A stretch of 33,081 nucleotides of DNA, from contig JAIYBC010000022.1 in NCBI GenBank assembly GCA_027488845.1, forward strand, positions 1 to 33,081, written 5' to 3'. Below the pieces are notes generated by a model. It worked only from the letters and a program-made list of their open reading frames with translations, had not been told where the DNA came from and did not search any database. Below, piece by piece: positions 7,576 to 33,081 of this stretch (its first letter is position 1; each line of letters begins with the position of its first letter). A program made the position numbers and the translations under genes. Source of the DNA: Verrucomicrobiales bacterium. Its GTDB lineage: Bacteria; Verrucomicrobiota; Verrucomicrobiia; Limisphaerales; UBA9464.

Positions 7576-8328
7576 ATGATGCTTCTGCTCGACGTCGGCA
7601 ACACCCACACCCATGTCGGCCTCGGCGACCCGAGGCGCACCCGCGTGCTCGGCGATTTCCCGACCGAAGCCTGGCGGGCCGGCACGGCGGCCGATTCGTT
7701 GCGGGAACTGCTGAAGTCGACCCGGCCGGACTCCGGCGGATTCTGCAGCGTGGTCCCGGCGGTGAACGGATCCGTCCGTTCCACCCTGACGTCGGAATTC
7801 GGCTTCGAACCCCGGCAACTCTCCTCCGACACCGTCCGGGGCGTCGGAATCCGGTACCCGAAACCCGGGACCATCGGACAGGACCGCCTCGCGAACGCCC
7901 TGGCGGCGAGGCACCGCTTCGGGGCGCCGGTGCTGGTCGTCGACTTCGGCACCGCGGTGACCTTCGACGTCGTCGACCGACACGGCGACTACATCGGCGG
8001 GATCATCGCCCCGGGCCTGTCGGCGATGACCGACTATCTCCACGAGAAGACCGCCCTGCTTCCACGGATCCGCATCCGCGAGCCCCGCAGCGTGGTCGGC
8101 CGCAGCACGGAGCAGGCGATGCTCGCCGGCGCGGTGCATGGGTACCGGGGTCTGGTGCGCGGGCTGATCCAGGAACTCCGGAAGGAACTCGGAGCACGCC
8201 GACTCCCGGTCGTCGCCACCGGCGGCTACGCCCGCCTGATCGCCCGCAAGATGCCGGCGATCGATGAAGTCGTCCCCGGACTCACGTTGGAGGGCGTCCG
8301 GTTGTTTTTGGGTGAGGGAGTGGGTTGA
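7576..8328 (+). CDS. coaX: Type III pantothenate kinase
   Basis: A 250-residue CoaX-type kinase that phosphorylates pantothenate in the first step of coenzyme A synthesis. It belongs to the ASKHA fold. Visible motifs are the N-terminal phosphate loop LLLDVGNTHTHVG with D6, GQDRLANALAA (101-111), VVDFGTAVTFDVVD with D123, and GGIIAPGLS (141-149). Two adjacent ATG codons (7576 and 7579) could both start the protein. It begins 8 bp after birA; birA-coaX adjacency is common in bacteria. The stop codon TGA lies inside the first copy of the 8-nt tandem repeat that follows. Confidence 0.95.
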   Translation: MMLLLDVGNTHTHVGLGDPRRTRVLGDFPTEAWRAGTAADSLRELLKSTRPDSGGFCSVVPAVNGSVRSTLTSEFGFEPRQLSSDTVRGVGIRYPKPGTIGQDRLANALAARHRFGAPVLVVDFGTAVTFDVVDRHGDYIGGIIAPGLSAMTDYLHEKTALLPRIRIREPRSVVGRSTEQAMLAGAVHGYRGLVRGLIQELRKELGARRLPVVATGGYARLIARKMPAIDEVVPGLTLEGVRLFLGEGVG

Positions 8329-8380
8329 AAGGTTGAAAGGTTGAAAGGTTGAAAGGTTGAAAGGTTGAAGCGGTGAAAGG
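8325..8380 (+). repeat. Tandem array of the 8-nt unit TTGAAAGG
   Basis: Five perfect copies of TTGAAAGG (8325-8364) followed by a decayed copy up to 8380. The coaX stop codon is inside the first unit. There are no unique spacers, so it is not a CRISPR. Related arrays are at 8832-8885 and 29199-29254. Confidence 0.9.
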
Positions 8381-8477
8381 GGCGAGGGGTGATGCCGGGA
8401 ATGGGATCCGGCGACTTCATTTGGAGATCGGCTGTGGAACGAGGTGAAGCCGCTGCTCCGACGTCGGGCTCTCTGGG

Positions 8478-8588
8478 GTACGGAGTCCCGGCTTCAGCCG
8501 GCAAGACCTTCACCCACGATGGACCCTGAACGACGCCCACCCGTTTTGGCCGACGGGATTCAGACCAACTGAAGCCGGGACCCCATAC
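8478..8588. repeat. Imperfect inverted repeat, 20-bp arms
   Basis: Left arm GTACGGAGTCCCGGCTTCAG (8478-8497) and right arm CTGAAGCCGGGACCCCATAC (8569-8588) match at 18 of 20 positions when inverted and flank 71 bp. This looks like a small palindromic dispersed element or a large hairpin; no open frame lies inside. Confidence 0.7.
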
Positions 8589-8831
8589 CTCAGATGGCCT
8601 TCGCGCCGTTCGTTGTCAGCGCTTCAGCGTCTCGGCGACTCACCGGTTGTTCATATCCCTGGAAGAGTCCTTACCGTGGGGATGCGGAGGCGGTTCACAA
8701 CCAAGGGTGCCAGGGGTGCCAAGCACACGGTCGCTGGACGCCTTCTTCTGGCGCATTTGCGCTCCTTCGCGTGGCCCACTCACGCTTCCGTTGAACCAGC
8801 GCCCTTCAGCCCAACCGGGCGGCCGAAGCCG

Positions 8832-8885
8832 CTTCAACCCTTCAACCTTCAACCTCAACCTTTTATCCCTTCATCCCTTCGTCCC
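8832..8885 (-). repeat. Degenerate octamer array downstream of the ArsC-like gene
   Basis: On the minus strand this reads as a run of GATGAAGG, GTTGAAG and GTTGAAGG-type units, a decayed version of the TTGAAGGG array. It begins about 20 nt after the stop codon of the minus-strand ArsC-like gene and points in the same direction as that gene. Confidence 0.65.
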
Positions 8886-8904
8886 CTCACCCACCAACCA
8901 CCCC

Positions 8905-9282
8905 TCACCCCACCACGGGCAACCGCTTCCATTCTTCCTCACGGAATCCGACCAGACCGATGTCCGGGCCCAGCAGGAACGGGCGTTTCACGAGGTTCCC
9001 GTTCGCGGCCAGCAGTCCGAGGGCGTCGTCGACGGACATGCCCGGCAGACGCTCGGAGAGTCCAAGGGCACGGTAGTCCTGTCCCGATGTGTTGAAGAGG
9101 CGCCGGAGATCGCCGCCCAGGTGTTCCAGCATCCGCCGCAGTTCCTCCGCCGTCGGAGGGGTCTCGCGGATGGCGAGGACTTCCACCTCGATCCCCCGGG
9201 ACGCGAGGAACCGGAGTGCCTTCCGGCATGTGTCGCAGCCGCTGTAGGCGTAAACACGGATTCCCGTCGGAGCTTTCCTCAT
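8905..9282 (-). CDS. ArsC/Spx family thioredoxin-fold protein
   Basis: A 125-residue protein of the ArsC/Spx/YffB superfamily. The N-terminal YAYSGCDTCRKALRFL carries a CxxC pair (C16, C19) where Spx and glutaredoxin-like ArsC proteins have theirs. The central and C-terminal parts (LFNTSGQDYRALGL, LLAANGNLVKRPFL) match the conserved family pattern around the LVKRP loop. Database names such as arsenate reductase are common for this family, but no arsenic-resistance genes are nearby and a redox or regulatory role is as likely. The ATG at 9282 gives normal family length; the longer frame upstream is not conserved-looking. It stands alone, divergent from the PSD1 gene with 218 bp between the start codons. 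Confidence 0.85.
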   Translation of the reverse strand: MRKAPTGIRVYAYSGCDTCRKALRFLASRGIEVEVLAIRETPPTAEELRRMLEHLGGDLRRLFNTSGQDYRALGLSERLPGMSVDDALGLLAANGNLVKRPFLLGPDIGLVGFREEEWKRLPVVG

Positions 9283-29198: not shown

Positions 29199-29254
29199 TC
29201 AACCCTTCAACCCTTCAACCCTTCAACCCTTCAACCCTTCAACCCTTCAACCCT
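29199..29254 (-). repeat. Tandem array of the 8-nt unit TTGAAGGG (7 copies)
   Basis: Seven perfect copies of TCAACCCT on the plus strand (TTGAAGGG-type on the minus strand), filling the space between the stop codon of permease paralogue 2 (29258) and the promoter region of the second TetR. The unit differs by one base from the TTGAAAGG array after coaX. There are no unique spacers, so it is not a CRISPR. Confidence 0.92.
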
Positions 29255-29257
29255 TCA

Positions 29258-30394
29258 TCACCGGAACACCGTCGCCGGTTCGAGTGTCACGACACGTCGG
29301 ATGCTGAGCAGGCTGGCGGCGAGGATGACGGCGAGGATGCACGCCCCGGTGAGCGCGACGGATTGCCAGAGCAGGACGATGCCGCGTGTGGCGAGTCCGT
29401 TCAGGGTGGCCTGGAAGAAGACCGCGGCGAGCCCGGTGCCCAGGGCGAAGCCGAGCACACCCACCGTCGCCGCCTGGAGCAGGACCATCCCGGTGAGCCG
29501 GCCGTTGGTCACGCCGATCGCCTTGAGGGCGCCGAACTGCCGGAGGTTCTCCACGGTGAAGAGGTAGAACGTCTGCCCCGCCACCACGGTCCCAACCACG
29601 AGGGCCACACCGATGGTGATGCCGAAATTGACCGGGATCCCGGTGTTCTTGAGGTAGTAGCGGACGCAATCCCAGACGAACTCCCGCGTGGTCCGCGCCC
29701 TCAATCCGGTCTGGGCGGCGATCCTCGCGCACAGCACCGCCTCATCCACGCCGGCCTGCGGACGCACCAGCACATAGGACAGCTCGGTGCGCTGACGCCC
29801 CTGGAACTTCAACGCCGTGGAGTACCGCGTGTGCATCACCGGGAAGCTCACGAACGGCGCCGAGGCGTCCGAGATCCCCACCACCGTCACCTCATGGTCG
29901 TTCAGGTCGAGCTTGCGTCCGACCGCCAGCGGTTCGCCGGGAAAGAGCAGGACGTAGCCGGCCTGGTCGATCACCACCGTGTCCGGCTCGGTCAGGCGTT
30001 CCCAGCTTCCGAGGAGCATCTTCCGAGGCGCCCCGGTGAGCGTGGCGTCGTCCAGTCCCAGGCAGAACGTCGAGGCGAACTTCCCCTGCGGCGTGCGCGC
30101 CACCGGGTTCCCCTTGAACATCCGCACCGCCCACGCCACGCCTTCCACGCCGCGCACCCGGGCGAGGTCGGTCTCCTTCAACGCCTTCGTCTGCTCGAAG
30201 TACTCGGTCTTCGGATCCATCACCCAGATCTCGGCGTCGGTGACGTCCAGGATCTGGTGACCCGTCCGCTTCATGATTCCGGCGAAGATCGAGGTCTGGT
30301 TCTCCAGCAGGAACGTGCAGAACGCGATCGCGAACACGAGGCCGAAGTACTTCGACGGATCCCCCGTCAACATCCGCAACGCCACGAAGTTCAT
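29258..30394 (-). CDS. DevC/FtsX-like ABC exporter permease, paralogue 2
   Basis: A 378-residue permease with the same plan as the one at 27406-28539: TM1 at about 17-36 (LVFAIAFCTFLLENQTSIF), periplasmic domain (DAEIWVMDPKTEYFEQTKAL), then three C-terminal TM helices, ending TLEPATVFR. The two proteins align almost end to end (for example both read ENQ/QNQ, ADIWV/AEIWV, LARVRGVEGVAWA/LQRVRGIPGIAWA and EPA-VFR), so they are paralogues. A good ribosome site (AGGAAGGGAGAG) precedes the ATG at 30394. It lies 73 bp after the first TetR gene, with an operator-like palindrome in between. It probably pairs with paralogue 1 and the single ATPase. Confidence 0.92.
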   Translation of the reverse strand: MNFVALRMLTGDPSKYFGLVFAIAFCTFLLENQTSIFAGIMKRTGHQILDVTDAEIWVMDPKTEYFEQTKALKETDLARVRGVEGVAWAVRMFKGNPVARTPQGKFASTFCLGLDDATLTGAPRKMLLGSWERLTEPDTVVIDQAGYVLLFPGEPLAVGRKLDLNDHEVTVVGISDASAPFVSFPVMHTRYSTALKFQGRQRTELSYVLVRPQAGVDEAVLCARIAAQTGLRARTTREFVWDCVRYYLKNTGIPVNFGITIGVALVVGTVVAGQTFYLFTVENLRQFGALKAIGVTNGRLTGMVLLQAATVGVLGFALGTGLAAVFFQATLNGLATRGIVLLWQSVALTGACILAVILAASLLSIRRVVTLEPATVFR

Positions 30395-32857: not shown

Positions 32858-33081
32858 ACCGCGGAGCAGAACGGCTTCACGCCGGGGAACGGACCTCACG
32901 CAAAACCGCAAAGCCGCGGGAGGAACTCGCTGGGGATGCCGATTCCGGTTGAAGCGTTGAAGCCATCGGTGTCCCGGCTTCGTTGAAGTGTGGTGGGCGT
33001 TTGGGCGCATTGCTGAAGCCTGGGAGGGGGCTCCGCGGGTCGGTCTGCGCAGGGTTCCCGGATGGTTCCCATGCGTCTGGA
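32858..33081. other. Intergenic end of window with a repeat copy, no gene seen
   Basis: 224 bp after the secreted-protein gene to the window edge. It contains a CTCACGCA repeat copy near its start and the motif GGTTGAAGCGTTGAAGCC (32948-32965), which resembles the octamer-array unit. No start or open frame of note is seen on either strand. Confidence 0.6.
32891..32925 (+). repeat. CTCACGCA-family repeat, copy 4 (short)
   Basis: Reads GGACCTCACGCAAAACCGCA followed by AAGCCGCGGGAGG. The CTCACGCA core begins 38 nt after the stop codon of the secreted-protein gene, in the same direction. The right end is not recognisable before the window edge. Confidence 0.65.

Follow-up and report, generated by a model that had tools for sequence, protein, structure and literature searches.

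The locus examined here raises the question of why arrays of an 8-nt repeat lie directly behind the stop codons of two convergent genes: do they belong to the gene ends, or to DNA inserted between the genes? The window (the whole stretch analysed, 33,081 nt) is contig C38 of a Verrucomicrobiales metagenome-assembled genome, G000, which comprises 5,390,984 bases in 69 contigs. An earlier note on this DNA had proposed that such arrays are linked to gene 3' ends.

The coaX-ArsC insert and the other arrays of the window

The coaX-type gene (type III pantothenate kinase; 7576..8328, plus strand; PF03309, E 3.6e-53) is followed by an array of five copies of TTGAAAGG, then TTGAAGCG and GTGAAAGG (8325..8380, plus strand), which is directed away from the gene and into the intergenic insert. 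As had been claimed, this left array begins inside the stop codon, the TGA at 8326-8328 lying within the first TTGAAAGG copy. The right array (8832..8889, minus strand) is inverted relative to the left one and lies behind the stop of a convergent ArsC-family gene (8905..9186, minus strand; PF03960, E 5.8e-10); the earlier description of it as decayed, mirrored and situated after that stop was borne out, while the distance is 15 nt and not about 20 nt. The two arrays point toward each other across a 449-bp spacer, which encloses two inverted REP-like units: GGAG plus a palindrome (GGAGTCCCGGCTTCAGCCGG) at 8482..8501 (plus strand) and, as read from the sequence, a slightly decayed inverted unit at 8565..8584 (minus strand) in a REPIN-like arrangement. 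The core of the insert therefore holds the inverted doublet of tagged palindromes that is a feature of REPINs, and the octamers are not part of that doublet. In the close relative G013 the orthologous insert carries both REP-like units exactly (C269:5525 and 5608) and a right array with a run of six units, both arrays being better preserved than in G000. Because arrays in these genomes edge intergenic inserts and point inward (see below), those at 8325-8889 read as the two ends of a single insert, not as two independent 3' arrays; if this is true, the apparent 3'-end signal is the edge of an insert.

The third array consists of seven units (ATGAAGGG followed by six copies of TTGAAGGG) at 29203-29258 (feature range 29199..29258, minus strand) and lies behind an FtsX/MacB-like permease gene (29258..30394, minus strand; PF12704, PF02687) whose stop touches it. 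The earlier note had placed these seven units at 29199-29254, starting 3 nt after the stop; their number and position behind the permease stood, but the first base of the array is the last base of the stop. In G013 this array has at least 11 units (L176, where the contig end cuts it), against seven in G000. On the coding strand of the gene that it follows, each of the three arrays has the sequence TTGAARGG, in agreement with the single direction noted before. A fourth, tiny array, absent from the earlier list, is a remnant (TTGAAGCG TTGAAGC; 32949..32963, plus strand) and adjoins one terminus (32964..33081, plus strand) of an insertion sequence with CATCGGTGTCC ends, inside which the contig stops.

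A 1.46-kb copy of this insertion sequence with both ends present was located in another member of the genus (G005, L309:823-2284). Its gene encodes a DDE transposase (DDE_Tnp_1, E 5.9e-12), for which the best NCBIfam match was IS4, under its cut-off. When 19 genomes of the genus were searched with one end of the IS4-like element, six copies were found (four in G000 and two in G005), five of which abut octamers; the element is thus often found at octamer arrays. Two arrays of G005 are directed outward from the 1.46-kb copy, at a distance exceeding the limit applied to pairs below, and this case runs counter to the inward orientation described there. A tblastn search of plasmids with the C-terminus of the transposase gave no match.

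Array pairs, recurring cores and length variation

The octamer arrays of the window are not chance occurrences, since TTGAARGGTTGAA (at most one mismatch) was matched 14 times within the window, far above a shuffle mean of 0.02, and the TTGAARGG dimer TTGAARGGTTGAARGG was matched 173 times (89 + 84) genome-wide in G000, where the backwards control was empty (0 + 0). Arrays of TTGAARGG were designated strict, and those containing any NTGAANNG dimer broad. At least 52 strict and at least 68 broad arrays were present in the fetched stretches of G000, which were selected for carrying arrays among the matches listed; mixed A/G dimer-only arrays beyond C38 may have been missed. The units vary around one scheme (TTGAAAGG, TTGAAGGG, CTGAAGGG, TTGAAGCG and ATGAAGGG) and the period is mostly 8.

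Neighbouring arrays no more than 800 bp apart were scored as close pairs and, of 35 such pairs in four genomes, 29 were inward, two outward and four tandem (inward/outward/tandem: G000 14/0/3; G013 4/0/1; G023 1/0/0; G063 10/2/0). The genome G073 gave 5/0/0, while the few stretches of G029 and G005 gave no pairs. An inward partner within 800 bp was present for only 28 of the 68 listed G000 arrays. Spacer lengths recurred: five pairs of G000 and two of G013 are 54-55 bp apart, and seven pairs of G063 are 175-180 bp apart. Copies of the 54-bp core were found in G000 (five, with 89-97% identity to the query), G013 (four, 73-89%), G012 (two) and G005 (one); elsewhere in the genus there was one weak partial match in the array-free G015 and none in the other 14 members. 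The two arms of one G063 element are predicted to form one hairpin with a stem of more than 30 pairs (z -11.2). The arms in G000 often differ in unit (TTGAAAGG against TTGAAGCG) and show partial pairing, and the corresponding values were -6.4 for one G000 core element, with its mismatched arms, and -5.8 for the window insert.

We consider it somewhat probable that the arrays, which vary in length, form the inward-directed ends of short inverted-repeat elements that are non-coding, situated between genes and similar to MITEs or foldback elements and in some cases holding REP-like hairpins. Units would be gained or lost within an array by slippage or recombination. A possible though doubtful alternative is that slippage is the entire explanation, the arrays being plain microsatellites, never mobile, in which octamer seeds grow by replication slippage where selection permits, that is, between genes. 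Their homogenised units are as expected from such growth. It does not, however, predict 29 inward against two outward pairs, nor the recurring core with near-constant spacers of 54 bp and 175-180 bp, nor the terminal repeats around arrays of G073 and G063 described below.

Length variation itself would suit either explanation. A comparison of copy number between close strains had been put forward as a check with the earlier note; compared with the close relative G013, copy number was found to vary: the longest unit run differed between G000 and G013, as assembled, at 11 of 12 orthologous array places, with one array having seven units in one genome and five in the other between identical flanks. 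These are short-read assemblies, in which assembled repeat lengths may be wrong. Of the 14 array loci retrieved from G013, ten correspond to array loci of G000, identity being 94-99% for the most part and 88-94% in a few stretches, and the remaining four have no counterpart among the G000 stretches compared. As the loci of G013 are largely at G000 places, which is also what slippage would give, the comparison showed no element that was present in one genome and missing from the other. Nine G000 contigs (L031, L032, L037, L038, L042, L054, L057, L060 and L061) end approximately 80-160 bp past an array, and array length in this assembly is therefore probably cut short by read length. Should the arrays be element ends of this kind, they would provide a length-variable marker for verrucomicrobial populations and would help to explain the positions at which assemblies break.

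The distribution of the arrays is patchy, a further point in keeping with slippage. Strict trimers were present in six of 59 genomes including G000, and within the genus in four of 19 (G000, G005, G012 and G013). The broad trimer was present in 11 of 50 family genomes including G000, with the highest counts in G063 (329) and G000 (328); its backwards control was non-empty in six genomes (G010, 14; G004, 12; G014, G017, G023 and G063, 1-3), and the forward pattern was absent from G010 and G004 despite their having the highest backwards counts. These two array-free genomes may carry a different repeat with the same period.

Exact TTGAARGG x4 was found in MAGs as well as isolates from many phyla (L156-L259, at least 104 stretches), and the occurrence of one octamer in records so diverse is likewise in favour of slippage. 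Of the 104 loci listed, 80 were examined, and after 23 had been grouped apart and six duplicates dropped, 51 loci were left, in which the close pairs numbered nine tandem, five inward and one outward. Seven of the nine tandem pairs are in records of Bacteroidetes groups or Flavisolibacter, and all five inward pairs and the outward pair are in records of Verrucomicrobia, Chthoniobacterales or Kiritimatiellae, one of the inward pairs (L208) being the G063 genome again. Since the octamer also occurs without such elements, the repeat unit alone is no marker of this kind of element.

Arrays at gene ends

The relation of arrays to genes was assessed with a codon-usage gene caller, a non-standard tool, and one of 24 G013 arrays, which lay inside a called gene, was excluded. 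Of the stop codons facing the 5' end of an array, 26 of 33 were within 30 nt of it in G000, as were 13 of 15 in G013 and, in G063, 21 of 32, compared with two of 30, one of 12 and none of 26, respectively, at the 3' end (Fisher P = 4e-9, 7e-5 and 4e-8). The stop overlapped the array in 11 of the 33 cases in G000 (one by a single base and ten wholly inside), five of 15 in G013 and three of 32 in G063. Among tandem repeats of other kinds in these G000 stretches, seven of 24 had a facing stop within 30 nt. A general G-rich tract after stops was considered and rejected, being absent at genes without nearby arrays.

The consistent direction relative to stops which the earlier note had expected genome-wide was therefore found, but the link is not specific to 3' ends. 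A start codon faced the array 5' end in 28 cases in G000 (against the 33 with a stop), five in G013 and ten in G063, so that gene 3' ends are not the sole location. In G073 no stop bias was observed, six arrays facing a stop and 11 a start. The arrays are thus not 3'-end specific; what is more constant is that they border an intergenic insert and are directed into it.

The sequence of the unit may offer a reason for the fit to stops. TGA recurs every 8 nt in (TTGAARGG)n, which closes all three frames within 24 nt, and the complementary strand, (CCYTTCAA)n, is free of stops in all frames. An inward-directed array carries a stop in every frame, and any gene entering it is consequently always closed. 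We infer from the sequence that this may explain the tight, one-sided fit of arrays to stop codons. An element end might lie against the final codons of a gene or take their place, and the TGA in each frame would still close the gene, which would account for the tolerance of elements at gene ends. If true, a stop in every frame represents a simple route by which repeated DNA may persist at the ends of genes.

The last 10 codons of genes hugging an array lose the codon-usage signal (27 vs 186 genes, P = 2e-4). In CoaX the ending LTALAHC..., present in seven of eight array-free relatives, is replaced by LFLGEGVG in G000, whose C-terminus differs from those of all eight readable array-free relatives (five further array-free loci were unparsed). 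In the alignment none of the array-free relatives extends past residue 243, while the G013 protein covers 1-250. At dnaG two units are joined to the gene in G000, whereas G013 has a six-unit run with the stop 12 nt before it; both proteins nevertheless end in Glu-Gly-stop, which upholds the earlier suggestion, made for coaX, that an array can vary in length without harm to the protein. The loss of codon-usage signal, the coaX and dnaG ends and the length changes fit with element ends working into gene ends. On that reading coaX and dnaG would be natural cases of a repeat supplying the end of a housekeeping protein.

A broader form of this proposal, in which such foldback-like inserts are widespread and compatible with gene ends, take over those ends and rewrite C-termini, act perhaps as length-tuned bidirectional terminators and offer their arms as landing sites for insertion sequences, appears unlikely to us. 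The idea that the arrays are primarily a functional 3'-UTR or bidirectional terminator module, in which the far array and core hairpins close each convergent gene before the next gene, we regard as quite improbable. The one-directional stop hugging in three genomes, hairpins stronger than shuffles and the location of 23 of 43 G063 arrays between convergent genes are all in its favour, and the C-rich, G-free transcript (CCCUUCAA)n of a far array could act as a Rho loading site. A promoter and terminator scan of 8200-9000 gave nothing above shuffles (one terminator-like site against a shuffle mean of 1.1), and an Rfam search of the same interval matched no family up to E 0.1. A terminator is difficult to reconcile with the 28 G000 arrays facing a start codon, with the 15 of 19 genus members that lack strict trimer arrays, and with the absence of stop bias in G073.

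Terminal repeats, mobility and comparison with known systems

The preferred reading, that arrays are the ends of inverted-repeat elements, was examined further in two genomes outside the genus, G063 and G073 (a MAG titled Lentisphaera araneosa), where many arrays lie just inside a 13-bp terminal inverted repeat, CTARAAACSGCAG. An 18-mer pattern of this terminal repeat, CTARAAACSGCAGTTRAA, was matched 57 times in G073, 45 times in G063 and not at all in G029, with a backwards control of 0. Of 14 elements with two ends in G073 and G063, ten hold octamer arrays, and L260-L263 have a different body. The CTARAAACGGCAG ends in L261-L263 (G063) were also observed to enclose another symmetric body, built on CCACAGATGGACACAGATTCACACAGATGG.

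Direct flanking repeats of 5-8 bp were present in nine of the 14 elements (six of the ten with octamer arrays) and none was seen in five. At thresholds of at least 5, at least 6 and 8 bp the counts were 9, 8 and 2 of 14, compared with 46, 29 and 3 of 182 in a control that joined the left flank of one element to the right flank of another; boundary shifts of at most 2 nt were permitted. The control is only moderately below the observed values, and TTGAA-like flanks therefore supply part of the direct repeats by chance; target duplication at the G073 and G063 elements nonetheless appears likely from these flanks. Outside the 14 elements, L195 has GCTTGAAT on both sides, as judged by eye. In G000 and G013 neither an empty site nor a transposase nor, beyond the arrays, a terminal inverted repeat was seen, and there was no sign of a target duplication, the G000 contigs with core copies ending within or just past the right array.

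Past spread of the elements by a transposase acting in trans may be supposed, and is the least certain step of the proposed mechanism; no transposase for the octamer elements was found in these fragmented assemblies. The sole candidate examined as an autonomous copy, on contig C9 of G063, where two inward-directed CTARAAACSGCAG ends are separated by 1.5 kb, was rejected as being two elements. The open frame between them, of 279 codons, had no Pfam match.

A REPIN/RAYT system, in which a Y1 transposase (RAYT) would move REP doublets and the octamers would be an extension of these, is very improbable: GGAG-tagged inverted palindromes do lie inside the window insert and G063 elements, REP pattern matches were more numerous in G000 (25), G013 (20) and G063 (77) than in G029 (1), the array-free G003 (0) or G073 (0), and all 11 REP copies in G063 stretches, chosen for octamers or terminal repeats, were within 100 bp of an array, but the distribution of Y1_Tnp genes does not follow that of the arrays (one in G000, two in G005, one in G012 and none in G013, against 1-12 in 15 array-free genus members), the 20 Y1 loci listed had no octamer dimer or REP within the 2.1-3.4 kb examined, a dimer in the vicinity of the G000 Y1 gene is approximately 4.6 kb away from it, and of four exact REP matches (of 25) examined in G000 stretches only that of the window lies between an array pair. 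A RAYT was rejected as the driver on the ground that copy numbers do not track the arrays. The low number of Y1 transposase genes (0-2) in the array-bearing genus members, next to 1-12 in the array-free ones, is recorded as an observation in its own right.

Several known systems bear comparison with the inverted-repeat elements proposed here. REPIN/REP-RAYT systems share with them intergenic inverted palindrome doublets with predicted hairpins (PMC3116915, PMC3733652), and one such doublet is inside the window insert. The arms made of octamers, however, differ from REPs, and Y1 transposase genes are not distributed with them. BrickBuilt of Porphyromonas gingivalis is a MITE containing a minisatellite and, like the elements here, is intergenic, non-coding, multi-copy and of inverted-repeat form with a short tandem repeat (PMC4596501). 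BrickBuilt has a tandem 23-nt unit between a leader and a tail and, according to the abstract, lies 49-591 nt from coding sequence, whereas here two inward inverted 8-nt arrays form the ends and often abut stop codons (PMC4596501).

Passages on lake bacterioplankton report slippage-type deletions at intergenic tandem repeats and continue to Planctomycetes; unit, direction and element are not described in those passages (PMC9426551). The verrucomicrobium Methylacidiphilum fumariolicum SolV has 54 tandem repeats, which hampered assembly, and is similar in that respect, but its G+C content is low (27.9%) and the passages available mention no octamer, direction or element (PMC4210602). A text search found two array 16-mers, their complements and two terminal-repeat 18-mers in none of the papers covered, and nothing about these octamer arrays was found in the titles or starts of abstracts listed.

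Eukaryotic foldback transposons have long inverted ends composed of short tandem subrepeats and are far longer than the elements here; the comparison is one of likeness. The STRR heptamer repeats of filamentous cyanobacteria are also short tandem units dispersed between genes, with a unit of 7 where it is 8 here, and to our knowledge no rule of inward pairs applies to them. In G000 several further tandem repeats between genes (L039, L040, L048, L056 and L059) have a 7-nt unit (AACGGAC, ACCACTG and AGATGCC, among others), as though unit lengths of 7 and 8 had been preferred in this genome.
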